Positions 2,705 through 36,711 of a stretch of DNA of 41,117 nucleotides are shown here, piece after piece. Below the pieces are notes generated by a model. That model made no database searches. It was not told the origin of the DNA and was given only the letters and a program-made list of their open reading frames with translations. This DNA comes from Thermoplasmata archaeon. Its GTDB lineage: Archaea > Thermoplasmatota > Thermoplasmata > RBG-16-68-12 > JAGMCJ01. Location of the stretch: contig JAGLRN010000031.1 in NCBI GenBank assembly GCA_023136265.1, forward strand, positions 1 to 41,117. The letters run 5' to 3'. Position 1 is the stretch's first letter. The number at the start of each line of letters is the position of its first letter. The translations under genes were made by a program, and so were the position numbers.

Positions 2705-3676
2705 ATGAGAAAGGACGCTCGAGCCGTCGAGAATCCCATCTCCGCCATTTTTGACCTGGCTGAGGAGGTGACCGAGCAGCATCCCAAGTTCAAGAGGCTC
2801 GTGAAGTATGCGACGGTATTCATCGCAGCCTGGTTGTTTGTCGACTTCTTGTTCATTGTGAGTTTCAGACCGATTACGTTTCCCTTCCTTCTGTTCCTCT
2901 TCGCGTCGCTCTTCCTGCTCAGATGGTTCAACGCCACTACGGCACGTGCCATCCTGATATCCGTCGCGACCGTGAACACGTTCCTAATCCTTCTGTTGTT
3001 CTGGCGCCCCGATGTCATTCTCCTTGGCGGGATCCTGACGGGGCTCTTCATTCTTGGCATTATCCTGCTCAATCTCATCCACGAGATCAGGACCTTCTTC
3101 GACTACTATTGGATAAGGTTCAGAGTGATTAAGAGCGTCAGGGACGAGGATCCCGTGATGTACATCCCGAAGGGCGAGAGCTCGGTCCAAAGGGTGCTCA
3201 GCTTCCTCGCACAAAGGAGCCCCGACCTCACGAAGCACTTCTCGGCGCCAGGGGCGATTATGACTCCGGCAATCCTCAAGGGGCGGGGTCAGTTCTTCTA
3301 TCAGTTCGATGCCTATGCCAGCAGACGTTCAGGCTCCCTGTGGAGGGTTCTGAAGCTCGGTTATCCAGGATATGCCATTTACATCAAGAGTTTCGCCGAG
3401 AAGCCCAGACTTCAGGACCTCACGGCGCTCAAGGGGGCGGTAGAGGAAATCACAGCATTCACGAAGCTCCCTCCCCGCAGAGTGATAGCCCTGTGGACGA
3501 GGAAGAGCGAGGAGACCCTCGATGACGATGCGTACGATTTCCTCACGGGCGAGGCAGGTGTCATTAGGGGCGGCGTCTCTCTCATGAATTGCTCGCTGGA
3601 ACTCATTTCCGAGAACCCGGATGGAACGTACGATTTCATCCCTTACGTCTCGGATGTTCCGAGCCGGCAACGCTAG
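2705..3676 (+). CDS. Four-helix membrane protein with soluble C-terminal domain, unknown function
   Basis: 323 residues from the ATG chosen by the TATA spacing; GTG at 2702 is a neighbouring alternative. Four hydrophobic helices are visible at about 34-52, 56-73, 80-98 and 103-122, followed by about 200 soluble residues with mixed alpha/beta character (for example an RGQFFYQFDAY strand and a late FIPYVSD). No catalytic motif or named family is recognisable. Its stop codon shares the four bases CTAG with the stop of the convergent winged-helix gene. Confidence 0.75.
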   Translation: MRKDARAVENPISAIFDLAEEVTEQHPKFKRLVKYATVFIAAWLFVDFLFIVSFRPITFPFLLFLFASLFLLRWFNATTARAILISVATVNTFLILLLFWRPDVILLGGILTGLFILGIILLNLIHEIRTFFDYYWIRFRVIKSVRDEDPVMYIPKGESSVQRVLSFLAQRSPDLTKHFSAPGAIMTPAILKGRGQFFYQFDAYASRRSGSLWRVLKLGYPGYAIYIKSFAEKPRLQDLTALKGAVEEITAFTKLPPRRVIALWTRKSEETLDDDAYDFLTGEAGVIRGGVSLMNCSLELISENPDGTYDFIPYVSDVPSRQR

Positions 3677-16770: not shown

Positions 16771-17340
16771 ATGAGCGTGACTACGAACGTTGCTGACAAA
16801 CTTATGACCCTGCCCGAGTCGTCGGCGGTCGCCCTGCAGATTAGGGCTGAGCACTATTTCGATGCGATCAGAGGCATCCTCGACAACTTCGCGATCAAGA
16901 AGGAGCTGGACAGCATCTACATCACGTCAACCATACCGTCGCAATCGATAATCAACGCCCTCCAGGTTCTCGAGGTAGACATGTCCAACATCTTCTTCGT
17001 GGACTGCATCTCACAGATAATGATGAGCACATCATCCAAACACGAGCACACCATCTACGTGGAGAGCCCGACGATGTTGGAGAACCTGATGCTCAAGGTC
17101 GAGTACCTTACAAAACGAACGCAAGGGAGGAACGACATCGTCATCCTGGACTCCATAAACTCGCTTGCCATCCACAACAACACCAAGATACTCTCCGAGT
17201 TCCTTCACCTTCTCGTGAACAATCTAAGGGCAAAGAAGGCGTACACGGTGATATTCTCCATGGAGGAGTACAGGTCCGAGGACATCTCGAACATGCTCAA
17301 TATCGTGGTTGACGAGACTATCATCGCGGCGGGTGAGTAG
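16771..17340 (+). CDS. KaiC-like protein lacking a P-loop (second of three)
   Basis: 189 residues. The position where Walker A should follow the first strand reads YITSTIPSQSIINAL, with no GKT, while a Walker-B-like IVILDSINSL (123-132) remains. The DCISQIM and IIAAGE segments also match the fold. Length is short because the canonical N-terminal TGxxxLD part is missing. It probably binds no ATP and partners the first protein. Start ATG four bases after the previous stop, after a GGGAGGGTAAGG stretch. The fold call rests on Walker B and context, so it is moderate. Confidence 0.78.
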   Translation: MSVTTNVADKLMTLPESSAVALQIRAEHYFDAIRGILDNFAIKKELDSIYITSTIPSQSIINALQVLEVDMSNIFFVDCISQIMMSTSSKHEHTIYVESPTMLENLMLKVEYLTKRTQGRNDIVILDSINSLAIHNNTKILSEFLHLLVNNLRAKKAYTVIFSMEEYRSEDISNMLNIVVDETIIAAGE

Positions 17341-17341
17341 G

Positions 17342-18079
17342 ATGGAAACGACGACAACGGGCATTCCGGCTCTGGACAAGTCCCTCATGGACGGGATACC
17401 CAAGGGCTTCACCATGTTGGTCGCGGGCCCGCCAGGTTCGGGGACCGAGCTCTTTGCAAAGCAGTTCGCGAGCGCGGGGATAGACTCCGAGAACGTCGCA
17501 TACTTCACGACGACAGAGAGAGATCAGGACGTAACGTCCACGATGGAGCACTTCGGCTGGAAGTCGAGCATGAAGATAATCAACATCGCGGACCAGTACT
17601 ACGAGAACGTGCTTTCCAAGGAGCTTGAGATAAGCCGCTATCGCCAGGAGGGGATAACGATGAAGGACATCATGGCTCACGCGAAGGAGAAGGTGGAGGA
17701 TAGGGGCGGGGTGAATTTCCTCACCGCCCTGACGTACGAGACATCCAGTCTGGAGCCTCCGTTCCGAGTCGTCGTAGACTCGCTGGACTTCTTCCTGGAG
17801 TACTACGACCATGTGGATGTTCTTTCCTCCTTGAGGACGATAAAGGGGCACACCCAGCATCAGGGGGGAGTGGCTCTGCTCACACTACTGACAGGAGTGT
17901 ATGCCACTCGTACCCAGAGTAGCATTGAGGAGATCGTCGACTGCTCAATCGAGCTTCAGAGGGAAAGGATCGAGAACACGTTCAAGAACTACCTTGTCAT
18001 CAGAAAGGTGAGGAATCATCCAGAGATGACTGGAATACACGAGTACAAGATAACCAAAGAGGGTATCACACCGAGATAA
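17342..18079 (+). CDS. KaiC-like protein with degenerate P-loop (third of three)
   Basis: 245 residues; the ATG follows GGTGAG and lies one base after the previous stop. The canonical opening TTGIPALDKSLMDGIPKGF is present, but the P-loop reads GPPGSGTE (29-36): the invariant Lys and the Thr are replaced by Thr35 and Glu36. Walker B is FRVVVDS (141-147). The middle (100-135) is an extra charged helical segment. ATP hydrolysis is unlikely; a regulatory subunit role is inferred from the pairing with an intact ATPase two genes upstream. Confidence 0.85.
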   Translation: METTTTGIPALDKSLMDGIPKGFTMLVAGPPGSGTELFAKQFASAGIDSENVAYFTTTERDQDVTSTMEHFGWKSSMKIINIADQYYENVLSKELEISRYRQEGITMKDIMAHAKEKVEDRGGVNFLTALTYETSSLEPPFRVVVDSLDFFLEYYDHVDVLSSLRTIKGHTQHQGGVALLTLLTGVYATRTQSSIEEIVDCSIELQRERIENTFKNYLVIRKVRNHPEMTGIHEYKITKEGITPR

Positions 18080-18116
18080 CTGGTTCTGGTTCCTGTTATC
18101 GATTTTTCAAGCGAAA

Positions 18117-18127
18117 CGTTTATATCC
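18117..18127 (+). promoter_or_regulatory. TATA box for the pilin gene
   Basis: CGTTTATATCC, a strong archaeal TATA box. Transcription should start near 18149-18151, about 28 bases before the start codon, so the message has a leader. The pilin can thus be expressed apart from the KaiC operon. Confidence 0.7.
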
Positions 18128-18148
18128 AACGGAGCATAAAGTAATGGT

Positions 18149-18170
18149 TGTAGGGTGACCTACAGGAGTG
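18149..18170 (+). promoter_or_regulatory. 5' hairpin with GUGA loop directly before the pilin ribosome site
   Basis: TGTAGG-GTGA-CCTACA (18149-18164) forms a six-pair stem with a GNRA-type tetraloop, followed at once by GGAGTG (18165-18170), the ribosome site for the ATG at 18178. Given the TATA position the hairpin would be the very 5' end of the mRNA. It could protect the message or tune ribosome access; function inferred. Confidence 0.5.
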
Positions 18171-18177
18171 ACACGAC

Positions 18178-18654
18178 ATGAACATACGAAGGAATGAGAA
18201 GGCTGTGTCTCCGGTTATTGCTACCATTCTCATGGTGGCAATTACCGTGGTACTTGCAGCAGTGCTGTACGTGATGGTGTCCGGCTTGATCGGCACTGGC
18301 ACGACAGGAACGCCGAACGTGGAGATGACGACGACTTCGACGACGGAAGGTTATGAATTCGAATTCGCGAAGCCCAGCAGAAACGAAGGACTCAGTGCCT
18401 ACAAGGTCACTGTCCTGAAGGATGGCGCACCATGGAGCGTTATGCCGCAGGTACTGTCAGCCGGAATGGATATAGAGAATACGGGTGGAGCTGGTGAGTG
18501 GCTGAACTTCACCGACCTGCTAAACGAGGGAGATCTAACTGCCGGGGACTTCTTCACCTTGGAGGAACTGGTCTCAGGATCGGAGTACGAGGTCATTGTG
18601 CTCTGGGCAGCAAGCAACGACAAGATAACGAGCGAAACAGTGAGCGTATCGTAG
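18178..18654 (+). CDS. Archaeal type IV pilin with class III signal peptide
   Basis: 158 residues. The N-terminus MNIRRNEKAVSPVIATIL is the archaeal pilin_N signature: a short basic leader cut by prepilin peptidase (likely just before AVSPV), then a hydrophobic helix to about residue 40 that packs in the filament core or membrane. The rest is a small beta-rich domain with threonine-rich TTTSTTEGYEFEF. It is an adhesion or surface pilus subunit; no assembly ATPase or platform gene is in the window. It follows the KaiC trio by 98 bases with its own promoter and ends in a strong terminator. Confidence 0.9.
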   Translation: MNIRRNEKAVSPVIATILMVAITVVLAAVLYVMVSGLIGTGTTGTPNVEMTTTSTTEGYEFEFAKPSRNEGLSAYKVTVLKDGAPWSVMPQVLSAGMDIENTGGAGEWLNFTDLLNEGDLTAGDFFTLEELVSGSEYEVIVLWAASNDKITSETVSVS

Positions 18655-21596: not shown

Positions 21597-22322
21597 ATGG
21601 ATGAGCATCCAGTCCTTCCGGTCGAAAAGGCGGCAAGAAGGAGATGGTTGAGAAGGCTGGAGGACATCGACAATCTGCTCTCCCTTCTCGAACCGTTCCT
21701 TGACAAACCGCTGAAGGACTGCCGTGTGGTGGACCTCGGCTGCGGTCCTGGGTCCCTTTCGATTCCCATCGCGATGAGAGTGAGAGACATCGTCGGCATA
21801 GACAATAACAAGAGGCTCATCGGCATGGCGGAAGACTGGGCGGAAAAGGAGGGTGTCAGCAACGCGAGGTTCGAGGCCATCTCCATCTACGACTACGACG
21901 GGGCGGGGGGCTTCGACATCGCGATATGCAGCGACGTCATCGAGCACGTTCCTAATCAGAGAGGGCTTGTCAGCGTCCTCGTCGAGAGCCTGCGGGTCGG
22001 CGGCGCGTTCTACATGACCACGAACAACAAGCTCTGGCCCCTGGAGGGGCACCACAAGCTCCCCTTCCTGTCATATCTTCCGAGAAGCTGGGCGGATCGA
22101 TATGTGAGGCTAATGGGCAAGGGAGACCACTTCAGGATCTATCCTCTGACCCTTTCCGAGGTGAAGAGGATACTGAACGAGTTCCCGCTGACATACGAGC
22201 TGAAGCCGCCGAGGAATCCCAGAACGGTTCTCTACAAGTTCGGGAAGAAGCTCGTCCAAGCGAGCGAGGTCTTCTGGAATCTGGCCAACGCCTTCCAGAT
22301 AGTGGGGGTGAGGTCGGAATGA
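21597..22322 (+). CDS. SAM-dependent class I methyltransferase (first of pair)
   Basis: 241 residues. Motif I VVDLGCGPG (44-52) and GIDNNK at the end of beta 2 define the S-adenosylmethionine site; CSDVIEHVPN is the usual post-motif in UbiG/Methyltransf_11-type small-molecule methyltransferases. The C-terminal part (PLEGHHKLPFLSYLPRSWADRY) resembles methyltransferases in glycan and polysaccharide clusters. First gene of the operon leading to STT3, so methylation of a glycan or lipid carrier is a reasonable inference. Overlaps the next gene by four bases (ATGA). Confidence 0.88.
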   Translation: MDEHPVLPVEKAARRRWLRRLEDIDNLLSLLEPFLDKPLKDCRVVDLGCGPGSLSIPIAMRVRDIVGIDNNKRLIGMAEDWAEKEGVSNARFEAISIYDYDGAGGFDIAICSDVIEHVPNQRGLVSVLVESLRVGGAFYMTTNNKLWPLEGHHKLPFLSYLPRSWADRYVRLMGKGDHFRIYPLTLSEVKRILNEFPLTYELKPPRNPRTVLYKFGKKLVQASEVFWNLANAFQIVGVRSE

Positions 22323-23029
22323 GACTTGACTGGAAGATAGACCAAGACGCCAGAAGCATCTGCTGGAAGGATCTGATGGATGCACCGAGAGAGATGGTGG
22401 AGGGCCGCCCGTTCACTGTCATCCTCGACCTGGGCTCCTCCAACGGCGCTTTTGGGAACCTCATCTCCATGGACAGGGAGACGAGGATCATCGGCGTCGA
22501 CATAAGCCGTGGCGTGGCTCCAGCTGAACACGTGGAGTTCGTCCAGGCGGACATCCTTCACCTTCCATTCAAGGACAAATCGTTCGACCTAGTCTCCGCA
22601 AGGGCGATCCTGCACCACGTGCCGGATGACGTGGAAAGGGCGGTCGAGGAGGCGGGAAGGGTCCTCCGCAGCGGGCAGATCCTCATATGCCAAGAACCCA
22701 CATCCGACAATCTCGTTTCCGAGCTAGCGCGCAGGATCTTCCGGACTGTGCTGCATGATCCGTCGGAGAGGGCCTTCTCCTCCGCGAGGCTCGAGCGGGC
22801 GGTGTCGAGCAGTCTGACGATGTTAGAGGCGAGATATCACCTCATCTTTGCCTATCTTCTCCCGCACTTCGCATCCAGGTTTCGCGGCCGCCTAAGGAGG
22901 ATGCTTCTCGGCCTGAGCAGACTGTTGGTCCGGGTCGATGAAAGGCTGCTCGCAAAGGGCCGCTTCTGGAGGAGAAGAGCCGCCTACGTCACTGTCTCGG
23001 CGGTGAAGTCCCCCGCTCAAGAGCCGTAA
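22319..23029 (+). CDS. SAM-dependent class I methyltransferase (second of pair)
   Basis: 236 residues. Motif I is VILDLGSSNGAFG (34-46), followed by GVDISRG, then LPFKDKSFDLVSARAILHHVPD, the Methyltransf_11 pattern. The C-terminal 70 residues are rich in arginine and hydrophobic residues (ASRFRGRLRRMLLGLSRLLVR), suggesting membrane contact and a lipid-linked substrate. ATGA overlap with the first methyltransferase and a 22-base gap to STT3 mean one transcript. Substrate unknown. Confidence 0.87.
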   Translation: MRLDWKIDQDARSICWKDLMDAPREMVEGRPFTVILDLGSSNGAFGNLISMDRETRIIGVDISRGVAPAEHVEFVQADILHLPFKDKSFDLVSARAILHHVPDDVERAVEEAGRVLRSGQILICQEPTSDNLVSELARRIFRTVLHDPSERAFSSARLERAVSSSLTMLEARYHLIFAYLLPHFASRFRGRLRRMLLGLSRLLVRVDERLLAKGRFWRRRAAYVTVSAVKSPAQEP

Positions 23030-23051: not shown

Positions 23052-26000
23052 ATGGCCCAGCGGTCCGTAGAACGCCGTGAGCCTGCCAAGCCAAGGCAGA
23101 CTCTCACAAGAAAACAAACATATACAAGAACCTCTATGGAACGGGCTACCAGTCCCTCGGTGATACAGGTGACAAAATCAATCCGTGAAGAGGCGCGGAC
23201 TTGGTTCCGGAAGAATTGGTCGAGCATCATAGCCTTGGTGCTCATCTTCTTCCTCGCCGTATACCTGCGAAGTTACTTCGCGTTCGACATGGCAACAGAT
23301 ACTGGCTTTGTCGTCTCGGGAGGTTCGGACTCGTACTACCACAAGAGGGTGATCGACTATGTCGTCGACACTGGCCATCACCTAGTGGGGGAGCCGCTCC
23401 TCGCGTACCCGTTCGGAAGCGAGGCCTCTGGGCGTCCACCGCTGTTCGACTGGTCGGTTGCCGTCTCAGGCATGGCTTTGGCACCGCTGTTCCAGGATGT
23501 GGACACGAGCGTCTGGTACTCGTTCATATTCTCGACGGCCCTGTGGGGCGCACTGACCGTGTTCCCGATGTACTTCCTGACCAAGGGAGCCTTCGGAAGA
23601 AAGGCGGCGATGTTGGCGGCCTTCCTGCTCGCGGTCATGCCCGCGCATATCCAGAGAAGCCCGCTGACAAACGGCGATCACGACGCGTACGTTCTCTTCT
23701 TCGTCGTTACGACTTTCTTCTTCTTCATGAGAGCCTTGGGCACTCTTCGGGAGAAGAAATGGGTCCGCAACTGGTTCAAGCCGAAGGACGTCACGAATGG
23801 GCTCTCGGATTTCTTCAGGTCGAACCGCGACCCGGTCCTCTACTCCTTCATGGCTGCCATATCCCTCACTGCGATTGCACTTGCGTGGAAGGGGTTCGGC
23901 TACGTCGTCGTCATCCTTCTCCTCTACTTCTTCTTCCAGATCCTGCTTAACAAGTTCAGAGGCGCCGACTCGACTGGCATCCTCGTTTGCTTCGCAATCA
24001 CCGTGGGCGTGGCCCTTATTCTGTCCATGCCCTGGTATGTCCAGTTCCTGAAGATGGGAGATTTCTCCACCCCGGCGTACATGTTCATCGCCGGCCTCGT
24101 CTTCGGGGTGATTTTCGTGGCTACGAGGGACTATCCCTGGTCTCTCGTGATGCCTTCTGTGCTTGCGGCTTCCAGTATTGCGCTGTTCCTCATGTTCATA
24201 TTCGCTCCGACAACCGTCTCCACTTTCCTCGCGGGCGCTGGCTACTTCATCAGGACGAAAGCGTACGAGACCATTGCTGAAGCCCAACCGCCCACGTTCA
24301 GCCAGCAAGCGATGTCGTTCGGGGCGGTCACTTATTTCCTCGCGCTGTTCGGACTCGTATACGCGGCCGTGAAGCTCCCGAAGAGAATGAAACCGGACTA
24401 TCTCTTCATAATCGTGTGGACAGGTGCCGCCATTTTCATGGCCTTGTCGGCGGCGAGATTCATATTCAACGGCGGGCCCGCCTTTGCGGCCGCATCCGCC
24501 TGGATCGTCATGCTGGTCATCGATAGGCTGGACTTCAAATCCGCCAAGAAGGTGTACAACAGCTTGAGCGGAAGCAAACTTCACGCCGTGAGAAGGAGCG
24601 TCAAGGTCAGGCACGTGGCGGGAGTTCTCTTCATAGCCTTCCTCGTGGTCCTGCCGAATGTCTGGTACGGAGTAGACGCATCCATACCGTTCGAGGACAA
24701 GAGAAGGCTCGATGAAGAGATATACGAGACCACGCCGGAATTCATGCAGCCCGAGCATTACAGTGCGCCGTGGTTCTTGGGTGCGTTCGGATACTCCTTG
24801 CCGCTCAGCAACAGATACTGGCCTGCCGCTTGGGAATGGCTCGAGCAGCAGGACGCGGACATACTCCCGTACGAGGACAGACCGGCGTTCCTAGGCTGGT
24901 GGGATTACGGCTTCGAGGCGGTCCAGGAAGGCAAGCACCCGACCGTTGCGGACAATTTCCTTCACGGGTACCCCACGGCTGGCAATTTCATAGCGGCCCA
25001 AGATGAGAACACCGCGATCGCGTATCTTTCCACGCAGCTTCTCCAAGGGGACTACATGGAGCACGGCAAGAAGCTCGGTCCAGAGATCAGGGTGATACTC
25101 GAGAAGCACGGCCTCAACCCTGACGAGGTGGAGATGGTGCTGCGGTACCCGACCATATACATAGACGAGATCGTCAGGGACCCGGACCGCTTCGGACCCA
25201 GGGACGACGTCATCCAGGCACAGAACGCGCTGCTCATCTACATGAAGCAACTTCTCATAGAGCAGCTCGACACGGACGAGCAGGCGGAGTTGTACATGGA
25301 CATCATCGACGCCACTGGGAATTCCATTAGGTACTTCGCCGTCGACTCGAGGATGTTTCCCTTCAGCGGGGGCAACCCTGGCATCTTCTACGCGCCGATC
25401 AAGCTCTCGGACCACAGGATCAAGGATTACGACGTGCGACCTGATGTTCCCATTGACTTCTTCGATCTCATCTGTGTGGACGCCGGAGGAGCCGGGCATG
25501 ATTGCGACGAAGTGACCGCGGCCCAGGGTGTTTCCAACTTCGAGATCGTTTACCAGGACATGTTCTGGAACAGCATGTTCTACCGGGCATACGTGGGTTA
25601 CAGTGCCGTTGATCTGGGAGAGGACCCCAGGGAGAAAGGCATACCAGGTCTTAGCGGCGAGTACGCGAACTCCATCCCACTGCACGGCTGGGGACTGAAG
25701 CACTTCAAGATGGTCTACCGAACCGCCTACTACAATCCGTATCCGCCAGATCAGTATCAGAACCACACGGACGCTTGGACTGCGGTGAACTTCGATGACG
25801 CTCTGAGATATCAGGAGGAGATCCAGGTGGGCCTTAGGCAGGGCGTTGTGGACATCAGCCCCAGGTCAGGACTGACGAGCGGTGTCGTATTCCTGAAGTA
25901 CTACCACGGGGCCATCGTGAGCGGCACCGTGACCGTGGACGGAGAAACGCCGCTGAGCGGCATCCGGGTCACTGTCAGGGATGAGTACGGCGTTCCCCAC

Positions 26001-29000
26001 TACGTGTCGCACACGGACTCGAACGGCAACTATCAGGTTCTGGTACCGTTCGGGGAGATTGACTTAGTCGCCTCCACCGGAACGTCGAACAACATGACGA
26101 TGATCGGGGAGACCGTCCTGAACACGACGACCATCTTCGTCACGGACGCGCAGGCGATGAGGATGCCGAATGACATGGATGGGGACGGAGAACTGGATTT
26201 CTACATCACCGAGGACATAATCGTCGATGGTGGTGGCCTCACGGGATCGATCTTCATCGACGAGAACGAGAACACCTTCCCAGAGTTGTACGAGCAGAGG
26301 ATAGCGAATGCTGAGCTCGTGTTCATTCACGTGAACACGGGTGAGATTATCAGCGCCATGACGAAGGACAATGGCTTCTACAAGATGACCGGAGCCTTCC
26401 CGGGAGCCTATGCGCTCCTCGTCGTGACTCCGGATAGGACCCTCGGTCCGTACGATATGAACGTGACGGCCGGGGAGACGAAGCTGGTTAACGTCCCAGT
26501 GCAACCCTCGAGCGTGGGCGGGCTAGCGAAGTTCGAGGACGGCTCCCCCGCGGAGGGCGCAACGGTCGTCCTCCTGGACGAGCACAATGGGACGGAGATG
26601 GACCGGATATCCGGACTAAGCGGTGCCTTCAAGTTCACGTCCCTCCTTCCTGGCAACTTCACCATGATTGCGGAGAGAGGAGAATACAGGAGCCTGCCCC
26701 TCAGACTGAAGATACTGGACGAGGGCGACACTAGGATCAGGAACGTGACGCTCCTACCCAGCGGAGAGGCGAAGGGCAGGAGCCGAGAGTTCGGAAACGC
26801 GATATCCAATGTTGCCATCATATTCAGGAGCCTCAAACATCAGACCTTCGATGTCTTTGTGAGAACTGACGAGGGCGGGTTCTACAACGTCGATCTCCCT
26901 GAGGGTGACTACCTGGTCTATGCCCTTCACGACCTGGAGGGGCAGAAGCTGGTTCACATGAGAGGGCTGACCGTTCGCAGGGGTGAGACCACCCTCTATG
27001 ATGTCAACCTGGAGGACGCAATCGAAGTCTCGGGGAACGTCATCGACGACACGAACGAGAACCCGCAGAACCAGATTAGGATATACTTCGACACAGGCGA
27101 CGCGAGGATTGTTGTAATCACCAGCGCCGACGGGGACTACTCCCTCTACGTACCGAAGGGAGAGTACAGCATCTGGGTCAGCCAACAGAACTTCGCTCAC
27201 CTGGAGAAGAGGCAGCTCACCTCGGACACGACGATAGACCTGCGCCTCAAGACGAGCGTATCTGTGACGAACACTCTCTACGAGGACAAGAACTCCAACG
27301 ATGTATCCGACATTGGCGAGGGGGTTGAGGATGTAGAGGTCGCCATAACCGACTCGAAGGGAGCGACGGTCAAGTTCCTCACGGACGGCGCGGGGAGGTT
27401 CACGGGCCCGCTTCCTGAAGGTAGTCAATACGCGGTCGTCTTCTCGAAGAGGGGTTACTCGAGCAAACAGATTGGACCCGTGAGCGTTGCGGACATCAAC
27501 CAATACGGGGCCATACAGCTCATCTCGTTGTTCGTTGGCGTTCAGGGACGCGTCCTAATGAACGGGGAGATTTTCACTGACCAGACGCTCGAAGTGAGAT
27601 TCGAGTCCGCTGGCTCAGGTGCCATTTCTGACGAGGTCCTCACGTCCCAGGGAGAGTTCCAGTTGTCCCTCAGGCCGGGGGAATACGACGTAATCATAGA
27701 CGAGCCCGTTGGCGGGTCGGAGGTGGAGAGACACCAACTCGTTTTCCCTGGGGTGCTAACACTGGAGCCCACAGATCGTCCGGTCGAGATTGTGCTTCCA
27801 ATAACGAAGCGATTCCTCATGACAGGAACTACTACCCTGAGTAGTGTTCCAGTGGCCGCAAACGTCACCTTCTCAGAAGAGGAGACATCCCCAGAAGAGG
27901 AAGTGGAGTTCGGTCCGATAGAGTGGGGTCCATTCACTAGCCGCATTAGCGTCGTGACGGAGAACTTCACGAAATACCTCAGAGAAGGTGACTACACGGT
28001 TGTTGCATCGACCGAAATCAGCGAGACCGAGTTCATGAGCGTCAAATCGATTACTGTCTCCGGTCCGCTGACGCTGGACATGGAGCTTCATCCTAAGACT
28101 AACGTGACCGGAAGGACGTTCTACGAGGGCAGTGAATACGTGACAAGGTTGAACATTAGCTTCTCATCTGAGAGCGGTGAGCTGATAGACAGAGTAAGCA
28201 CGACCGCCGCAATGTATTCCGTCGATCTCCCGCCCGGGAGGTTCATCGTGGAAATCGATCACTCCGACAATGTCACTGTCGACGGGCTGTACAAGTTCGT
28301 GCGATACCAGTTCTCGGAGACTCTTCTCATCACCGAGGGACTTTCCGAGAGGACCTACAACATAAACCTGGTCAGGGTGTTCGACAACGTGACGGTCTCA
28401 GGAACCATTCTTCATCAGGGCCAGGGCGTCGACGCTGAGGCGACCATATCGGCTGATTCGCAGACTGCCATGGATGCGGCCTTCCAGTCACAATCCGATG
28501 GCACGTTCAACCTGACGCTGGCTCCAGGACAGTACAGCATTTACATCCACAAGAAGGAGGGGCACCTCGTCTTCCTCGGTCTCTTCGAGATATTGCAGGG
28601 ACAGGACAGGGAGTTCGAGTTCGAGCTGACGGAATCGTACAGGGTCTCGGGCATGGCAACCTATCGGGACGGGCTCCGTCAGAAGACCTACGTCCACGTC
28701 CTAGGAGAGGGGAGCTACAACTTCGAGTCGGACGACAACGGCTACTTCGAGGTCTACCTGCCTCCGAGCGTCTACGAGATCAACGCGTACACGGAGGACT
28801 ACGAGGGAGAGAAGCTGGTAAGGTACAGCACGGTCCAAGACCTGGATGTCGACGGGAACGAGGTCGTTTCCCTCAGGCTCGAGAAGGAGATCGTCAGGAG
28901 CGTCGATATCGCATGGGATTCGGGTCAGAAGAGAAAGATCGGCGGGGGAGAAAGCGTAACATACTCAATCACAATCGAGAACGCGGGTAATGTTCCCGAC

Positions 29001-29732
29001 GAATTCGAGATGACAGGTGTCCCGCCCCGCGACGGATGGACATTCAAGTTCAGCCCGTCGAAGATCTCACTCGGGACGGGAGAGCAGGCCCATGGCTCCT
29101 TTGAGGTCACGGTCACCGCTCCTGCGGACGCTCTTGTCGAGCACGGCCCAGTGAAGATCCTGGCGACATCGGCCAACGACGCTGACACGACGGACGGGGT
29201 CACGGTCGAGATAGAGATCAAGCAGTTCTGGGGGATAGCCCTGGAGGTCTCCTCCGACGTACCAGTCTACGACGGCACGTACCTGGACATCCTCGTGAAC
29301 CTCACCAACTCCGGCAACGGTCCCGACTCGTACTTCATAGAGATAGCGAACGTCCAGCCAATTGAGAACGAGGGCTGGGAGGTCGGACTGAGAAACGAGA
29401 CATCGCAGCACACGGCCGCGTCATTGATCGGTTTCGAGGTTCCCTCCAATTCGACTTCCACGTTCGGTCTCAGGCTCATACCAGCGAGAAAACTGCTGAA
29501 CCAGACCGTGAGCATAACCGCTCATTCCCATGATAACTGGGGCAATGATGAGAACATCGACATCGAAGTGGCATCACCGACCGCCCAGGTCGTTGGCGAG
29601 AACATGTTCGCCGAGGGGCCAAACGCTCACACTGAGCCTCTGGAGGACTACGTGAGCTACCTCCTCGTGGGCGTCATCGTCGCTACCTTGGTTGTAGCGT
29701 TCGCGTACTTGAGAAGGAGGAGGAAGAAGTGA
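23052..29732 (+). CDS. Giant STT3/AglB oligosaccharyltransferase fused to beta-sandwich repeats
   Basis: 2226 residues; archaeal AglB is normally about 600-1000. Residues 1-940 are STT3: first helix 56-72, SDSYYHKR with the metal-binding Asp93, second acidic motif GDHD (Asp209, Asp211), about a dozen helices to 540, then WWDYG (616-620), the sequon-binding motif. So it can transfer lipid-linked glycan to Asn of secreted proteins. From about 954 to 1945 come about a dozen carboxypeptidase-regulatory-like beta-sandwich units (SGTVTVDGETPLSGIRV type), then two NEW3-like domains with IENAGNVPDEF and LTNSGNGPDSYFIE, and a C-terminal helix (about 2203-2220) ending RRRRKK, cytoplasmic side. Many N-x-S/T sites lie in the tail. 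Start is uncertain: ATG 23052 or ATG 23136. Ends in GTGA overlap with the next gene. Confidence 0.92.
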   Translation: MAQRSVERREPAKPRQTLTRKQTYTRTSMERATSPSVIQVTKSIREEARTWFRKNWSSIIALVLIFFLAVYLRSYFAFDMATDTGFVVSGGSDSYYHKRVIDYVVDTGHHLVGEPLLAYPFGSEASGRPPLFDWSVAVSGMALAPLFQDVDTSVWYSFIFSTALWGALTVFPMYFLTKGAFGRKAAMLAAFLLAVMPAHIQRSPLTNGDHDAYVLFFVVTTFFFFMRALGTLREKKWVRNWFKPKDVTNGLSDFFRSNRDPVLYSFMAAISLTAIALAWKGFGYVVVILLLYFFFQILLNKFRGADSTGILVCFAITVGVALILSMPWYVQFLKMGDFSTPAYMFIAGLVFGVIFVATRDYPWSLVMPSVLAASSIALFLMFIFAPTTVSTFLAGAGYFIRTKAYETIAEAQPPTFSQQAMSFGAVTYFLALFGLVYAAVKLPKRMKPDYLFIIVWTGAAIFMALSAARFIFNGGPAFAAASAWIVMLVIDRLDFKSAKKVYNSLSGSKLHAVRRSVKVRHVAGVLFIAFLVVLPNVWYGVDASIPFEDKRRLDEEIYETTPEFMQPEHYSAPWFLGAFGYSLPLSNRYWPAAWEWLEQQDADILPYEDRPAFLGWWDYGFEAVQEGKHPTVADNFLHGYPTAGNFIAAQDENTAIAYLSTQLLQGDYMEHGKKLGPEIRVILEKHGLNPDEVEMVLRYPTIYIDEIVRDPDRFGPRDDVIQAQNALLIYMKQLLIEQLDTDEQAELYMDIIDATGNSIRYFAVDSRMFPFSGGNPGIFYAPIKLSDHRIKDYDVRPDVPIDFFDLICVDAGGAGHDCDEVTAAQGVSNFEIVYQDMFWNSMFYRAYVGYSAVDLGEDPREKGIPGLSGEYANSIPLHGWGLKHFKMVYRTAYYNPYPPDQYQNHTDAWTAVNFDDALRYQEEIQVGLRQGVVDISPRSGLTSGVVFLKYYHGAIVSGTVTVDGETPLSGIRVTVRDEYGVPHYVSHTDSNGNYQVLVPFGEIDLVASTGTSNNMTMIGETVLNTTTIFVTDAQAMRMPNDMDGDGELDFYITEDIIVDGGGLTGSIFIDENENTFPELYEQRIANAELVFIHVNTGEIISAMTKDNGFYKMTGAFPGAYALLVVTPDRTLGPYDMNVTAGETKLVNVPVQPSSVGGLAKFEDGSPAEGATVVLLDEHNGTEMDRISGLSGAFKFTSLLPGNFTMIAERGEYRSLPLRLKILDEGDTRIRNVTLLPSGEAKGRSREFGNAISNVAIIFRSLKHQTFDVFVRTDEGGFYNVDLPEGDYLVYALHDLEGQKLVHMRGLTVRRGETTLYDVNLEDAIEVSGNVIDDTNENPQNQIRIYFDTGDARIVVITSADGDYSLYVPKGEYSIWVSQQNFAHLEKRQLTSDTTIDLRLKTSVSVTNTLYEDKNSNDVSDIGEGVEDVEVAITDSKGATVKFLTDGAGRFTGPLPEGSQYAVVFSKRGYSSKQIGPVSVADINQYGAIQLISLFVGVQGRVLMNGEIFTDQTLEVRFESAGSGAISDEVLTSQGEFQLSLRPGEYDVIIDEPVGGSEVERHQLVFPGVLTLEPTDRPVEIVLPITKRFLMTGTTTLSSVPVAANVTFSEEETSPEEEVEFGPIEWGPFTSRISVVTENFTKYLREGDYTVVASTEISETEFMSVKSITVSGPLTLDMELHPKTNVTGRTFYEGSEYVTRLNISFSSESGELIDRVSTTAAMYSVDLPPGRFIVEIDHSDNVTVDGLYKFVRYQFSETLLITEGLSERTYNINLVRVFDNVTVSGTILHQGQGVDAEATISADSQTAMDAAFQSQSDGTFNLTLAPGQYSIYIHKKEGHLVFLGLFEILQGQDREFEFELTESYRVSGMATYRDGLRQKTYVHVLGEGSYNFESDDNGYFEVYLPPSVYEINAYTEDYEGEKLVRYSTVQDLDVDGNEVVSLRLEKEIVRSVDIAWDSGQKRKIGGGESVTYSITIENAGNVPDEFEMTGVPPRDGWTFKFSPSKISLGTGEQAHGSFEVTVTAPADALVEHGPVKILATSANDADTTDGVTVEIEIKQFWGIALEVSSDVPVYDGTYLDILVNLTNSGNGPDSYFIEIANVQPIENEGWEVGLRNETSQHTAASLIGFEVPSNSTSTFGLRLIPARKLLNQTVSITAHSHDNWGNDENIDIEVASPTAQVVGENMFAEGPNAHTEPLEDYVSYLLVGVIVATLVVAFAYLRRRRKK

Positions 29733-30508
29733 AGCGTGCTGTTCTTTCCCTCTTGATCCTGTTCTCCCTTCTCTCGCTAGTTCCTAGCGTGGCTTCGCAG
29801 GATGTAGTCGTCAATGTGGAAGGCCCCAGTGTCATGACCATCGGAGGCAAGGCTCAGTTCAACGTGACCGCCGCAGGTGGCCCGGGAGAACAGGGCGGGA
29901 CCTACAATATCACGGCCTTTCTTATTGGGGACAACCTAACCGGAGCGGATCCCTCCCCAGGAAACGTCTTCATCAATCTTACGACTGAGCCACATTGGGA
30001 AATCAATGTCACCGTTCCCTATGCCGCGCAGACGATGACTTTCGAGGTCAACGTCAGATCGAGCCTTGGCAACGACAGTACCTTCAAGATTGTGAGGACC
30101 AAGATAAGGGTCGTGGGTCCAATCATTCTGAGTGCGGAAATCCACAACCCGCTGGAATACGAGCTGAAAGGAGTCCCTGTGGACTTCTATGTGAAAAAGC
30201 CGGGCGAGACAGAGAGCCGGCTCGTGGGAAGCTCCACGATAGAGTCCATTGCCCCAGGGAAGAGCGAATACGCCTCGTTCGACTGGATAATCGCAAATCC
30301 TGAACCGGGGCAGTACACGCTCACCGTCGTGGTCGACTTGGACAGGGATGGCGAGATCGACGAGAGCGCTGGGGATTCGGTCGCCAGCTCATACTTCTAC
30401 GTTGGGGGCGGAGTGGACTACGTCACGTGGATATTGGCGGCTCTCATCATCGTACTGGCCTTGCTGGCCGCAATGTGGCTAATCAGGAAGCCCAAGAGAA
30501 GGCCCTAG
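29729..30508 (+). CDS. Secreted, C-terminally anchored CARDB-like protein
   Basis: 259 residues with a GTG start overlapping the STT3 stop and GGAGGAGG in the STT3 tail as ribosome site. Signal peptide 1-23 (ends PSVASQ), a beta-rich outer part of about 200 residues, the second half resembling a CARDB domain (YVKKPGETESRLVGSS, then GQYTLTVVVDLDRDGEIDE), and a C-terminal helix (about 232-252) ending RKPKRRP. Same membrane layout as the end of STT3, so the two could sit side by side. Several N-x-S/T sequons (NVT, NLT, NDS). Function unknown; accessory to the STT3 tail is inference. Confidence 0.85.
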   Translation: MKRAVLSLLILFSLLSLVPSVASQDVVVNVEGPSVMTIGGKAQFNVTAAGGPGEQGGTYNITAFLIGDNLTGADPSPGNVFINLTTEPHWEINVTVPYAAQTMTFEVNVRSSLGNDSTFKIVRTKIRVVGPIILSAEIHNPLEYELKGVPVDFYVKKPGETESRLVGSSTIESIAPGKSEYASFDWIIANPEPGQYTLTVVVDLDRDGEIDESAGDSVASSYFYVGGGVDYVTWILAALIIVLALLAAMWLIRKPKRRP

Positions 30509-31122: not shown

Positions 31123-31242
31123 GGTCATGGCAATCGCTCACGTGCATAAGTCTTTTTGTCTTTCGGAAGCCGAACGATATTTTGATTTAGGGGTACCTCA
31201 TTAGCTGGCTTGCTTCTTAAGCGGGAGGAGGAGGTTATGCGT

Positions 31243-34200
31243 ATGAAATCTGAGGAAGCTCGTGCTGATAGAATCTTTGCTCGTCTGTTATGCCTCGCTG
31301 TGGCGGTGGCAATGGTGTTGCCTGTGGCCTTCGCGGTTATTCCATCCGAGGAGCCTGACAGGCACACGATGCCTGAAGATCCGAAGCCCACACAAGAGCT
31401 GTTCCTGCTGCAGGTGACCAACACCCTTGACGTGGCGAGGTCAAACGAAGTCGTGCGCTATTCGCTCACTCTGGACAACTTCCATCTTCTCGATCCGTCT
31501 CAGTTCCTCGTAAGGGCCACATCAACGGGCCAGGAGGTTCTTTCCGGACATCTTGAGTCCACGGTGGAGAGATATCCCTCCAACTTCATCCACAAGATGG
31601 ACATCGTGTTCCAAGACGACTTCGGCCCTCTCCAGGTGAGGACATACGAAATCGACACGTCAAACACGACGGCGCTGACCGGCGACATGACCGTCACCTC
31701 CAACGCCAACACTGTCGAGGTGAGGGACGGGCCCAGGAGATACACGCTCTCCAAGAAGGAAGTGGACAGGAACGGGGTCTATGTCACATACCAGAACGGC
31801 TCCGCGCCAACCGTTCGCGGCTACATCTTCGTCAGGATTGGCGGGAACCAGCTTACGATAGACCAGGCTAGCGTGGAGATGTGGTGGGGCTCACCAACAC
31901 TGGAGGAGATCGACATCAACAACGTGATGGTCTCCGTCCACCTTCAGTACGGCAGTCCGAGCATGATAAACTGGGGCGTCGGCACGATGGGTGACCTCTA
32001 CAAGGACACAGACGTGATCTTCGGGGACGTCCACGTCAACTTCTACAATGACAGGGAGATGTATGAGACGATAACCGACAAGAAGGTCAACGAGAAGTTC
32101 CACAACCACAACGGCTTCGTGATGGAGTTCACCGTCCTCTATGGAGGGGACGCTGAGTACCAACAGATATTCGGGAACAGTCAACATCAGACCATGACCG
32201 CAAGGACAAGAGAGCCAACGTGGTCAAGGGTGAACCCGGTGTTCAGGGCGCACGACATCGGGAACCGAAGCGCCCCCGCATTCGCCAACCTGGACAACGA
32301 CACGGACTATGACATGGTGGCGGGTTCGGCGGAAGGAGAGATCTGGTACTTCAGGAACACAGGGAACAAGAACACGCCCGTCTGGAGCAGGGACACGGAC
32401 ATGTTCGCGGCGTTCAGTGGTGTGGCCAATCACTCCGTTCCCTGGCTTGCGGATGTCGATGGCGACGCCGATTTCGATCTCATTCTGGGAAAGGACAACG
32501 GCACTCTGGTGGAGATTGAGAACGTTGGCACCGTGCAGACGCCCCAATGGAGCCTGAACACGACCGCCTTCGCCGGAATGGATGTGGGCAACTTCTCCGC
32601 ACCCGCCCTGGGCGACCTGGATAACGACACCGACCTCGACCTTGTCGTGGGAGAGGAAGGCGGCTTCTTGATATACTACAGGAATGATGGGAACTCGACC
32701 TCACCGAGCTGGACACTCGACCCGCTCGAGTTCCAGGCTCTCGGAAGCCTAGGGGCCAACGTCATACCCAGACTGGACGACCTGGACGGTGACGGAGATG
32801 TCGATATCGCGGCTGGGCTTCAGGATGGAACGATTATCAACGTCATCAACACAGGGAACTCGTCAGTAGCCAACTGGACACTGCAGCCGACCCTTTTCCA
32901 GGGGATTGACGTCGGGGGCTACGCGGCTCCCGCCCTAGCGGATCTGAACTCGGATGGAGACCTTGATTTCATCTCGGGAGAGTACAACGGCTCGCTCTTC
33001 TACTACCAGAACACGGGTTCGCTGGTCTCTCCCCTGTGGACCCAGGACAGCTTCCTTCACAGGCTCTCTTCCCTTGGCGTGCGTGCCGTCCCGGAATTCT
33101 CCGACCTGGACTCAGACGGTGACCAAGACCTCACAATTGGCTTGGACGATGGAACACTGACGTACCTCGAGAACGTGGGCCTTCCGACCGTGGCATCTTG
33201 GCGGGAGGACCCGAGCTTCTACTCCGGCATCGATGTCGGCAGCCTCAGCGTCCCCGCGCTTGGCGATCTCGACGACGATAACGACTTCGACCTCGTCCTC
33301 GGAAGAGACGATGGTACGCTGACGTACTACGAGAATACTGGCACGAACGTCTCGGCCTCATGGACGCTCAACGCGTCAATGTTCCCCGGAATAGACGTGA
33401 GGGACAACAGCGCCCCTGAGCTCGTGGACATAGACACTGACGGGGACCTCGACCTTGTCGTGGGGAATGCCACTGGTTGTGTGCACCTCTACAGGAACAC
33501 TGGGACCGTTATGCAACCATCGTGGACACACGACCCCTCGGTTTTCGACTTCATCAACACGGGGCTGTCCAAGAAGCCCGGGAAGTACGCGACACCCGCC
33601 TTCTCTGACGTCGATGGCGACGGAGATCTGGACTTCATATCAGGACAGGACAATGCGCCATACGGCAGCCTAGTCCTCTACTTCAACACTGGCACGAGGT
33701 TCAGTCCGGTATACGATCAGCTCTATCCGGGCATGTTCAACAACGTGCGCGGCGGGGCTACGGACGGGACACGGGACTTCAGTGCACCCGAGTTCGTGGA
33801 CCTGGATGGCGACGGTCGTGAGGACATCGCAGTCGGAACGAACGACGGCTGGCTGACCTTCTACCGGAACGCAGGGAACAGCTCCGCGCAGAGGTCGGTC
33901 AACTACATGGAACCGCAGACGGACGGCAGCTACAGGTTCTACTACGATCAGGATGGCAATGATGGTCAGTTCGTCATAAGAGGGACCTCGGACGACTTCT
34001 TCGACTACTACGTCATGGCCAATCCGAACACAGGCAGGGCGACCATGCGATTCATACCTGACTTTGCCAGGCTTGCGTATCGAGACAAGTATTCGGGTGA
34101 CCAGTTTCCTTGGGCAGGAGGGAATGTCAGCTACTATCCCTTCATCCCCGAGGAGGATGGCTACGTCGGTCGGGCCATAGTCATCTCTCGAGCTCAGGCT

Positions 34201-36711
34201 GGATTGGGGATGGGAGCCTCCTTCCTGACCCAGACGGGAACCGCAGGCGGATTCATACTCGTACCGCTCACGGCCAAGAGCCATGCCAGCAGGGAAGTGC
34301 TGTTGCCTCAGATCGCGCACACCACCGACTATTCGACCTACGACACGATGGCCCAAATCCTTGGGACACCGCTTGTCGTCTCCTGCCCGCCTGACCTCGC
34401 CCTCGTAACCGAGGACATAACGTCCAATCCTCCAGATCCGGGAGAGGGGGACATAATCACGCTTACCGCGAACGTGAGGAACATTGGCGGGGGCAATGCG
34501 AGCAACGTTGAAGTGGAGTTCTTCGACGGCTCGCCCACGCTGAACAAGCGGATCGGGACGACCCAAGTCATACCGAGCGTCCCCGCCCGTTACAACGCGA
34601 CCGCCTCCGTGATGTGGAACCTCAGCGGGGTCTCTGGCCTGCACGACGTCTACGTCCATATCGACTCGAGCGACACGATCACGGAACTGGACGAAGGGAA
34701 CAACCTGGCTTTCAGGGGCTTCAACATAACCTCCTGGACGAGGATGTGGAGCCCGCCCGTCCGCATGACGTTCGACATGAACAACAGCCTTGAACCGACG
34801 ATGGTGGAGGATGCCAACGGGAACATGTGGATTGCGTATCACACGTACACGAAGCACGACGACTGGGACATCGCCGTGAGGAGCTGCAAGGATCTGGTAT
34901 GCACTCCCGAGAACGCCATCGTGACCGATGCGAAGAGGACGAGCCAGCCGTATCTCGTGGCGGATGACAGCGGCAACGTGTACACGATATACTCGAGCAA
35001 CATCGTGGAGTGGCAGGACTTCATTAGTCTCAAGAGCGGCATCTACTACTGGAGCCAGAAGTTCGACCTGTACTCGAAGAAGTTCAACGGAGCCACGTGG
35101 GAACCCACGGTCCAGGTGACCGCGTCTGAGAAGATCGACAACTCGGACCAGGTTCCGGTCGCAACGATCGATGGCGCTGGAGATTTGTGGGTCGTAATAC
35201 GCAGCACCCACTACGACCTCTACGAAGGCGGCTACCAGATGGCGAACATGCCGTACAACGACATGAACATAACAGCCGCCAGCTTCGACGGCGCCACCTG
35301 GACGACGGACGTGATCGTGAACAACGATGCCGGGTCGCAGGGCTTCTGGGGAGGGCCTACCGTCACGACCGATGCTTCGGGCACCGTCTGGACGGCCTGG
35401 GGAGCTGAGATATCCAACACTCAATGGGACGTCTTCGCGACCTACTGGACGGGCTCGGGTTGGGCACCCAAGATGGGGGTGAGCCTGAGTCCGCTGAACG
35501 ATATGAGACCGTCCATGGCCTCCGACAGCTCAGGCCGCGTCTTCGTGGCGTGGGAGTCCAATCGGACGGGTGACAAGGAGATCTTCATGCGGTACTACGA
35601 CGGTACATGGTCCCCCGAAGTCCAGGTCTCGGACGACCCCGGGCACGACATAAAGGCCTCCGTCGTGGTGGACATGCACGACAATGTGTGGATAGCGTGG
35701 GAGACGGACAGGCACGGTAACAAGGACGTCTACATCAAGCGGTACAACGGCTCCTGGTCCCCGCCGATACAGGTGACGACGAGCGCGTTCTCGGACGAGG
35801 AGCCCTTCCTCGCCGCCAGCGACCACACGGACTCGATCTGGGTCGCATGGGAGACGGACAGGCACGGCAACAAGGACATCTACGTGAAGACGCTCCCGGA
35901 CGTCCTCGTCTGGCCCGACAGAGAGGTCGGTCGTCCGTACAACATCATGGCCGAGATGGTGTCCGACTACTTCCAGATGAACATCAGCTGGGACCTGTCC
36001 AAGGACGATGGCATGGGAGAGGATGACCTCGTCGCCTACGACATATACTGCAGCGTCGTCTACGACAGGGACAGACAGGGATACTTCTTCCTCGCGTCGG
36101 TCCCGGCGGGCACGAACCACTTCATCTACGATCTGCCTTTCGGCCCCAGCAACATGTTCTGCTACGTTGAGTCCAGGGATGATGCCAATAACACCGCGTC
36201 GACGACGGACCAGGTCGGCCTTCTCGTCAAGCACGTGATGCCCGGAAGCAATCTCGTCTCCGTTCCGTTCCTGCTGAAGAACCCCTCCGTCTCGCAGGTC
36301 CTCGGCAGCGTCAACTATTCCGACTCCAGAATCTACGACGTCTGGGGCGGGCGGCAGTGGCGGCAGCACACACCGCTCAAGAACTACGCAACCTTCTCCG
36401 ATGTGGACCTAACCATGGGAGTCTGGGTGAACAGCACCATCGACGGCAACTTCCTCGTGGCGGGTGTTGTTCCGGACGAGACGATAATACAGCTCGCGAA
36501 GGGCTGGAACCTGATAGGGTTCCCCTCCTTCCGGGACGACTATCGGATCGCGGACCTGATGGCCGAGACGGGAGCGACGAGGGTGGAGGGCTTCGACCAG
36601 GCCGCTCCGCCCTACTATCTGCAGGTGCTCCTGCCGAACCAGTTCATGGCGGCGGGAGAGGCGTACTGGATATATGTCCCGGACACGACATCGTGGACCG
36701 TCAGAAACTGA
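31243..36711 (+). CDS. Giant secreted beta-propeller surface protein (FG-GAP/VCBS, CARDB)
   Basis: 1822 residues from the ATG eight bases after GGAGG; ATG 31237 is possible. Signal peptide about 1-34 (basic, then LCLAVAVAMVLPVAFAVI). Residues 40-330 are a beta-rich domain; 343-880 hold ten FG-GAP/VCBS units with DxDxDGDxD calcium loops; about 1051-1160 is a CARDB domain (GGGNASNVEVEFFDG, DEGNNLAF); about 1170-1560 is a second propeller with repeated VAWETDRHGNKDIYVK units; then a fibronectin-like part and a C-terminal WNLIGFP / YWIYVPD domain seen in archaeal secreted proteins. No C-terminal membrane helix or sorting motif, so it is released or held by other proteins. Very rich in N-x-S/T, a likely STT3 substrate. 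Function is unknown. Confidence 0.9.
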   Translation: MKSEEARADRIFARLLCLAVAVAMVLPVAFAVIPSEEPDRHTMPEDPKPTQELFLLQVTNTLDVARSNEVVRYSLTLDNFHLLDPSQFLVRATSTGQEVLSGHLESTVERYPSNFIHKMDIVFQDDFGPLQVRTYEIDTSNTTALTGDMTVTSNANTVEVRDGPRRYTLSKKEVDRNGVYVTYQNGSAPTVRGYIFVRIGGNQLTIDQASVEMWWGSPTLEEIDINNVMVSVHLQYGSPSMINWGVGTMGDLYKDTDVIFGDVHVNFYNDREMYETITDKKVNEKFHNHNGFVMEFTVLYGGDAEYQQIFGNSQHQTMTARTREPTWSRVNPVFRAHDIGNRSAPAFANLDNDTDYDMVAGSAEGEIWYFRNTGNKNTPVWSRDTDMFAAFSGVANHSVPWLADVDGDADFDLILGKDNGTLVEIENVGTVQTPQWSLNTTAFAGMDVGNFSAPALGDLDNDTDLDLVVGEEGGFLIYYRNDGNSTSPSWTLDPLEFQALGSLGANVIPRLDDLDGDGDVDIAAGLQDGTIINVINTGNSSVANWTLQPTLFQGIDVGGYAAPALADLNSDGDLDFISGEYNGSLFYYQNTGSLVSPLWTQDSFLHRLSSLGVRAVPEFSDLDSDGDQDLTIGLDDGTLTYLENVGLPTVASWREDPSFYSGIDVGSLSVPALGDLDDDNDFDLVLGRDDGTLTYYENTGTNVSASWTLNASMFPGIDVRDNSAPELVDIDTDGDLDLVVGNATGCVHLYRNTGTVMQPSWTHDPSVFDFINTGLSKKPGKYATPAFSDVDGDGDLDFISGQDNAPYGSLVLYFNTGTRFSPVYDQLYPGMFNNVRGGATDGTRDFSAPEFVDLDGDGREDIAVGTNDGWLTFYRNAGNSSAQRSVNYMEPQTDGSYRFYYDQDGNDGQFVIRGTSDDFFDYYVMANPNTGRATMRFIPDFARLAYRDKYSGDQFPWAGGNVSYYPFIPEEDGYVGRAIVISRAQAGLGMGASFLTQTGTAGGFILVPLTAKSHASREVLLPQIAHTTDYSTYDTMAQILGTPLVVSCPPDLALVTEDITSNPPDPGEGDIITLTANVRNIGGGNASNVEVEFFDGSPTLNKRIGTTQVIPSVPARYNATASVMWNLSGVSGLHDVYVHIDSSDTITELDEGNNLAFRGFNITSWTRMWSPPVRMTFDMNNSLEPTMVEDANGNMWIAYHTYTKHDDWDIAVRSCKDLVCTPENAIVTDAKRTSQPYLVADDSGNVYTIYSSNIVEWQDFISLKSGIYYWSQKFDLYSKKFNGATWEPTVQVTASEKIDNSDQVPVATIDGAGDLWVVIRSTHYDLYEGGYQMANMPYNDMNITAASFDGATWTTDVIVNNDAGSQGFWGGPTVTTDASGTVWTAWGAEISNTQWDVFATYWTGSGWAPKMGVSLSPLNDMRPSMASDSSGRVFVAWESNRTGDKEIFMRYYDGTWSPEVQVSDDPGHDIKASVVVDMHDNVWIAWETDRHGNKDVYIKRYNGSWSPPIQVTTSAFSDEEPFLAASDHTDSIWVAWETDRHGNKDIYVKTLPDVLVWPDREVGRPYNIMAEMVSDYFQMNISWDLSKDDGMGEDDLVAYDIYCSVVYDRDRQGYFFLASVPAGTNHFIYDLPFGPSNMFCYVESRDDANNTASTTDQVGLLVKHVMPGSNLVSVPFLLKNPSVSQVLGSVNYSDSRIYDVWGGRQWRQHTPLKNYATFSDVDLTMGVWVNSTIDGNFLVAGVVPDETIIQLAKGWNLIGFPSFRDDYRIADLMAETGATRVEGFDQAAPPYYLQVLLPNQFMAAGEAYWIYVPDTTSWTVRN
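32269..33895 (+). repeat. Ten FG-GAP/VCBS protein repeats, period about 54-57 residues
   Basis: Each unit starts S/A-x-P-A/x-L/F, then DLDxDGDLDLVxG, then GTLxYYxNTG and PxWxxxxxxF. The joins alternate over the first units: odd ones come after FxGIDVGxxSAPAL, even ones after FxxLxSLGxxxxPxL, giving a two-unit period of about 110 residues. Later in the gene (about 35698 and 35848) GAGACGGACAGGCACGG occurs twice, 150 bases apart, in a near-identical pair of units. Confidence 0.85.

Follow-up and report, generated by a model that had tools for sequence, protein, structure and literature searches.

A gene of 2226 codons, at 23052-29732 on the forward (+) strand of a 41,117-nucleotide stretch of DNA from a Thermoplasmata archaeon (contig JAGLRN010000031.1, positions 1-41,117, assembly GCA_023136265.1; hereafter the window), encodes a predicted oligosaccharyltransferase of the STT3/AglB class that continues into a very long extracellular tail and is followed by an overlapping partner gene. 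Enzymes of N-glycosylation are usually pictured as having a conserved catalytic core to which only small parts are added. This protein apparently represents a known class of enzyme in an undescribed architecture that spans the phylum, as we found no account of an STT3 protein with such a tail in the openly licensed literature, including that on AglB from marine Group II, Thermoplasma and Methanomassiliicoccales. Our tentative proposal is that the two genes specify an oligosaccharyltransferase complex in which the tail is docked on the enzyme and acts as an extracellular scaffold or holdase.

The frame is open from its ATG without an internal stop. Pfam STT3 (PF02516) matches residues 63-477 with an E-value of 1.2e-15 and 58.3 bits, above the cut-off of 24.5, and the archaeosortase-associated archaeo_STT3 model of NCBIfam (TIGR04154) scores 214.5 bits over residues 59-662, below its 450-bit cut-off. 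The top PDB matches are structures of AglB from A. fulgidus. The membrane part, which we delimit to residues 60-545 (23229-24686, +) from the Pfam match and the hydrophobic segments, contains the first acidic motif with D93 (SGGSDSYYH; 23328-23330, +), the second acidic motif D209-H210-D211 (23676-23684, +) and a TIxE motif, T407-I-A-E410 (24270-24281, +), with its glutamate. The AglB-type globular domain that follows, residues 546-945 (24687-25886, +), was recognised from matches to PDB entries 3vgp and 3vu0 over residues 589-659 and from the conservation profile. It carries WWDYG at residues 616-620 (24897-24911, +), unchanged in all 26 aligned members of the class, and a conserved VDSRM/L at residues 764-768, which we do not equate with the DK/MI motif that lies behind WWDYG in this enzyme class. 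The source genome (1.8 Mb, 92% complete) holds a single copy of the gene, the sole oligosaccharyltransferase found there.

The tail begins with a domain at residues 946-1060 (25887-26231, +), followed by carboxypeptidase-regulatory-like repeats 2-11 at residues 1061-1955 (26232-28916, +) and two NEW3/CARDB-like domains at residues 1956-2190 (28917-29621, +). Pfam CarboxypepD_reg recognises seven stretches (4.3e-47), and a purpose-built repeat profile finds 11 repeats over residues 969-1913. The Pfam NPCBM_assoc match to the NEW3-like domains is weak in this protein (E=0.074); they are backed by NF041740 at residues 1994-2119 (5e-15) and by matches of relatives to NPCBM_assoc or CARDB. The chain ends in a membrane helix with a basic cytosolic end at residues 2201-2226 (29652-29729, +), the hydrophobic segment being followed by RRRRKK, and such a segment is present in nearly all fetched homologues longer than 1900 residues whose end is included. 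A preliminary description of this DNA had placed D93, D209-H210-D211 and WWDYG at these positions and had read an unbroken run from STT3 through about a dozen sandwich domains and two NEW3-like domains to a C-terminal anchor. That outline stands, with the repeats counted as 11 and the TIxE motif as an addition.

Relatives were sampled within one phylum, and the size classes of their sequences were compared by family. All 60 of the nearest genomes (31 genera, the source genome included) match the giant protein, and in most of them, some being single-contig genomes, the fusion is either complete or truncated where a contig stops. Two genomes of family f11 (G041 and G053) match only as far as residue 1000 of the query, yet their frames run to 1931-1967 residues. 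STT3 frames measure about 2050-2400 residues in the class. Several other families have frames of 2300-2700 residues, and families f41 and f49, which are probably marine Group II, mostly 3100-3270. Fusions beyond 1500 residues, which the preliminary description had suggested seeking, are therefore class-wide and are joined by forms of 2300-3270 residues elsewhere in the phylum: the long tail is the rule in the phylum and not the oddity of a single genome. The same description had credited known AglB proteins with no more than a compact C-terminal globular domain; this is right for the AglB enzymes that have been studied, the 875-residue PDB matches among them, but is not the rule in this phylum.

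Short STT3 forms of 1150-1430 residues, in which only the first tail domains are present, occur in families f31, f40, f52 and f56. A separate adjoining gene for the tail was looked for in these short-tailed families and none was seen. Canonical STT3 paralogues of 900-1000 residues are confined to a few families; tail-less examples are L072, L079, L080 and L081, and one genome (G083) has both a canonical paralogue and a 1291-residue form. A tail profile derived from the class matched the long and short-tailed forms tested, starting about 270-340 residues after WWDYG, or 430-530 residues after it in f41/f49, and gave no match in the 900-1000-residue paralogues included. Likewise, WWDYG is followed by a homologue of the first tail domain in both long-tailed and short-tailed forms across the phylum, and in those paralogues it is not. 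In a tree of the STT3 part the proteins cluster by family and tail class, with some weak deep forks and long branches. The simplest reading would be an ancestral short tail common to these forms that was lengthened by repeat duplication. That an assembly or gene model had falsely joined two genes near residue 940, a possibility the preliminary description had raised, is vanishingly improbable. The identical join recurs in many independent assemblies and in single-contig genomes, and the homologous first domain follows WWDYG across the phylum; full-length homologues in so many independent assemblies exclude a chance or false join.

The tail appears to be held to a fixed plan. Across the 26 class members its alignment columns are mostly about 95-100% occupied, often at only 20-35% identity to the source protein; its length hardly varies except near residues 1601-1640, and the repeat profile counts 11 repeats in most members. 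This near-full occupancy and constant count indicate that the length and register of the tail are constrained. The first tail domain is about as conserved as the core. Pairwise ratios of nonsynonymous to synonymous substitution (dN/dS) within the genus lie at 0.05-0.27 for all parts of the protein, at about 0.1 for the core and at 0.05-0.12 for the first tail domain.

The partner gene (29729-30508, +; 259 residues) has a GTG start that overlaps the stop of the giant gene, and its product has a signal peptide and two immunoglobulin (Ig)-like domains, of which the second resembles CARDB, followed by a single membrane helix with a basic end. Homologues lie 3' of the giant gene in 39 fetched class loci by tblastn, in agreement with a profile search, and position -1 relative to the giant-gene stop is the commonest place for their start codon. 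Searched genome-wide with the profile, nine class members have one full-length copy each and a tenth (G125) a shorter one; outside the class, two family f33 genomes also have a copy that follows the giant gene. This coupling makes it likely that the partner is an accessory subunit of the giant enzyme. An AlphaFold2 model of the partner reached a predicted local distance difference test score (pLDDT) of 68, and Foldseek against the PDB returned only generic Ig, transglutaminase and macroglobulin folds at template modelling scores of at most 0.34, which is uninformative. In the f41/f49 loci a subtilase-like gene occupies the place of the partner behind an STT3 frame of 3100-3250 residues; the frame at L057:9654-10871 is a subtilase (Pfam Peptidase_S8, 3e-40), and the other f41/f49 loci were judged by similar length and start.

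Tail and partner both look extracellular and selected to carry N-glycans. N-x-S/T sequons number 780 in the class tails against 346 expected from shuffles, each of the 26 tails exceeding its expectation (L043 barely), and in a comparison with mirror motifs there are 783 sequons to 398. For the partner the corresponding figures are 172 and 64. There is no excess in the STT3 membrane part (49 against 43) or in a D-x-S/T control (346 against 401). The preliminary description had suggested that the tail might be the main glycoprotein, modified in cis. The sequon excess in the tail supports this in part, and it does not single out the tail, since another exported protein of the window, the 1833-residue product of 31210-36711 with FG-GAP repeats and CARDB, has a like excess (30 sequons against 13 mirror motifs). 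The excess would seem to be a general trait of exported proteins here and as such lends indirect support to transferase activity.

Family f11 offers a different view of the tail. It was mcrA-positive in the six genomes tested, which within this class makes it very probably Methanomassiliicoccales. Family f23 is also mcrA-positive, with intact active-site motifs, and taking it as likely Methanomassiliicoccaceae, f11 is probably Methanomethylophilaceae. We read 14 f11 proteins; in one of them (L120) the contig stops ahead of the motifs. Twelve of the remaining 13 (L031, L032, L121 and L131-L139) have degenerate active-site motifs. The DHD aspartates are lost in all 12 and the first aspartate in 11 (L138 keeps it); WWDYG has become WFGYS, WFEYS, WYGYA, WYGYS, WIDY-, WINT- or WFQD-, and TIxE is unrecognisable, with a glutamate aligned there in L032 and L136. 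The degenerate proteins placed in the tree form one clade with 100/100 support, adjoined by the one intact protein of the 13, L130 of genome G178. Against the full-length class profile the degenerate proteins reach E-values of 1e-56 to 1e-128, and most of these matches begin with STT3 and extend as far as the tail or the C-terminal helix. In 13 of 25 f11 genomes there was no PF02516 match at E<=1, the rest having mostly weak matches within the giant frame, and other PF02516 matches at that threshold in f11 genomes are absent or weak.

The sequon excess is nearly gone in f11, with 161 observed against 126 expected in 14 tails, and the partner was found in all four f11 genomes searched. At six of ten further f11 loci a frame that has the partner's conserved ending lies directly 3' of the giant gene, the other four being cut or left unresolved by the filter. 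The cytosolic end of the f11 partner is strongly conserved, as RKPVKNYGKPKSRR and close variants. Glycan transfer thus seems to have been lost in the degenerate proteins while tail and partner were kept, which would suggest a second role for the tail, one that seems separable from catalysis. Family f11 may therefore serve as a natural separation-of-function experiment for a non-catalytic job of the outer part of an oligosaccharyltransferase, and the family we take it to be has a cultured member, Methanomethylophilus (PMC10673518). In families f22 (L030, L117, L119) and f15 (L039, L042) D93, TIxE or TVxE and WWDYG are kept, DHD is replaced (GR[MA]HT, NYL) and sequons remain abundant. Given the motifs that are kept and the enriched sequons these enzymes are probably active, possibly with a different metal site.

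We propose the following arrangement. The first gene would supply the STT3/AglB enzyme, continuing into a string of fixed length, 11 plus two domains, that returns to the membrane by its last helix; the second would supply a small single-pass Ig/CARDB protein, probably seated against the string. The first tail domain may dock on the catalytic core and the remaining tail may form an N-glycosylated arch or hairpin over the outer face of the membrane. Tail and partner together would serve there as scaffold or holdase, holding surface proteins that have just been exported close to enzyme and exit site. What the sequences themselves show is an unbroken fusion with its order of domains, the fixed repeat number, the coupled partner, the sequon excess and the retention of tail and partner in f11; docking, the arch, a partner that touches the tail and a function as scaffold or holdase are what we infer from them. 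The preliminary description had imagined a rod reaching far beyond the membrane, which is doubtful because both ends of the tail are anchored; an arch or hairpin is as likely as an extended rod. Its suggestion that the rod presents substrate proteins is the one we favour, in a form widened by the partner gene and by the retained f11 tails. Several observations weigh against the scaffold proposal. The partner was not seen adjoining the giant gene in f41/f49, f36 or various other families outside the class, and nothing points directly to the tail touching the partner or to the binding of substrates. Families f40, f31, f52 and f56 get by with short tails and no C-terminal helix. Beyond its first domain the tail changes more quickly than the core does, at dN/dS 0.23-0.27 against about 0.1, so that a spacer or coat role also fits, and an AlphaFold2 model of tail residues 940-2130 from four close sequences had a pLDDT of 30 and was not used.

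The main rival, which we judge somewhat unlikely, is that tail and partner are mainly structural glycoproteins, many twice-anchored arches making a thin coat in cells without a surface layer (S-layer), with an enzyme that originally glycosylated the coat in cis. The sequon excess in tail and partner and the tail kept where catalysis seems lost fit a coat, as do relatives without an S-layer (Cuniculiplasma, PMC5155288; Methanomethylophilus, PMC10673518). In marine Group II archaea, moreover, an oligosaccharyltransferase gene is among those with high and differential transcription (PMC9723583). However, a single gene copy and an enzyme head of 10-13 membrane helices would make each arch a costly unit, the FG-GAP protein is equally rich in sequons, and a strictly fixed repeat number would be unusual for coat repeats. 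It is less probable, and in our view unlikely, that the tail's only task is to recognise or orient, for this enzyme, its acceptor proteins or the lipid-linked glycan. Fusion to the sole oligosaccharyltransferase found in the source genome, and conservation of the first tail domain at about the level of the catalytic core, would suit such a role, which is weakened by f11, where tail and partner are kept beside degenerate active-site motifs. The preliminary description had also considered that the rod fixes the enzyme to an S-layer. Picrophilus and the acid-mine plasmas do have surface layers (PMC3750248), but the protein family is phylum-wide and other cultured relatives are reported to be without one, Cuniculiplasma despite its AglB genes (PMC5155288) and Methanomethylophilus, of the inferred f11 family, where none was seen (PMC10673518). 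This disfavours a tether as a general role, and with a C-terminal helix that returns the rod to the membrane we consider it very improbable.

Other genes near the giant gene were also considered. Two overlapping methyltransferase genes lie upstream (21597-23029); as they adjoin the giant gene in families f1 and f2 only, we rejected them as members of the unit. Within the genus, one further genome (L004) has the FG-GAP gene near the giant-gene unit, the flanks of most loci being too short to compare. Further upstream, at 16771-18654, two KaiC-like ATPase frames precede an archaeal type IV pilin-like gene (Pilin_N).

With AglB of A. fulgidus (PDB 3waj and 5gmy) the giant protein has in common the STT3 membrane fold, the acidic, TIxE and WWDYG motifs and the extracellular globular domain. 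The studied AglB proteins stop after that domain, at 875 residues, whereas the giant protein has about 1280 further residues, a second anchor and a coupled partner. The genome's other CarboxypepD_reg proteins that we inspected, several of them cut by the ends of their loci, have one or a few such domains and no rod, and to our knowledge the PDB contains few comparable rods. A profile of the tail searched against the PDB matched NOMO2 (9c7v, a 1267-residue chain) best by far, at 8.5e-41 against 5.5e-14 for the next entry. Tail and NOMO2 are similar in length and appear to share a plan, a string of Ig/transthyretin-like domains with a C-terminal membrane helix and a short cytosolic end. The tail counts 11 CarboxypepD_reg-like and two NEW3-like domains plus the helix, where NOMO has about 12 domains plus the helix, and it differs from NOMO2 in its fusion to STT3 and in its last domains, which are NEW3/CARDB-like. 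The homology is not collinear over the full length, as the same archaeal repeats match several stretches of NOMO out of order. The tail would thus resemble NOMO at the level of its repeats, and we treat the match as a lead and not as a classification.

The partner shares the plan of TRAP-alpha and TRAP-beta of the eukaryotic translocon, namely a signal peptide, an Ig-like ectodomain, one membrane helix and a short cytosolic end. Searches of Pfam and the PDB and with Foldseek gave no sequence match to TRAP, returning CARDB and generic Ig folds only. NOMO has 12 Ig-like domains in a rod of about 27 nm (PMC12262048); NOMO2, with its one C-terminal helix, belongs to the BOS complex of the eukaryotic multipass translocon (PMC12262048, PMC11169918), and contact between TRAP and NOMO has been proposed (PMC11169918). 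It is conceivable, though we think it quite unlikely, that archaea have here their own version of the eukaryotic oligosaccharyltransferase-NOMO-TRAP translocon assembly, formed by the giant STT3 with its NOMO-like tail and by the coupled single-pass Ig partner, and that this version has outlived glycosylation in one methanogen family. Such a counterpart would consist of a single chain and its partner and would be a maturation scaffold for exported membrane proteins. Should the tail work at the translocon in the manner of eukaryotic NOMO, it would give a prokaryotic entry to the poorly understood NOMO/BOS complex.

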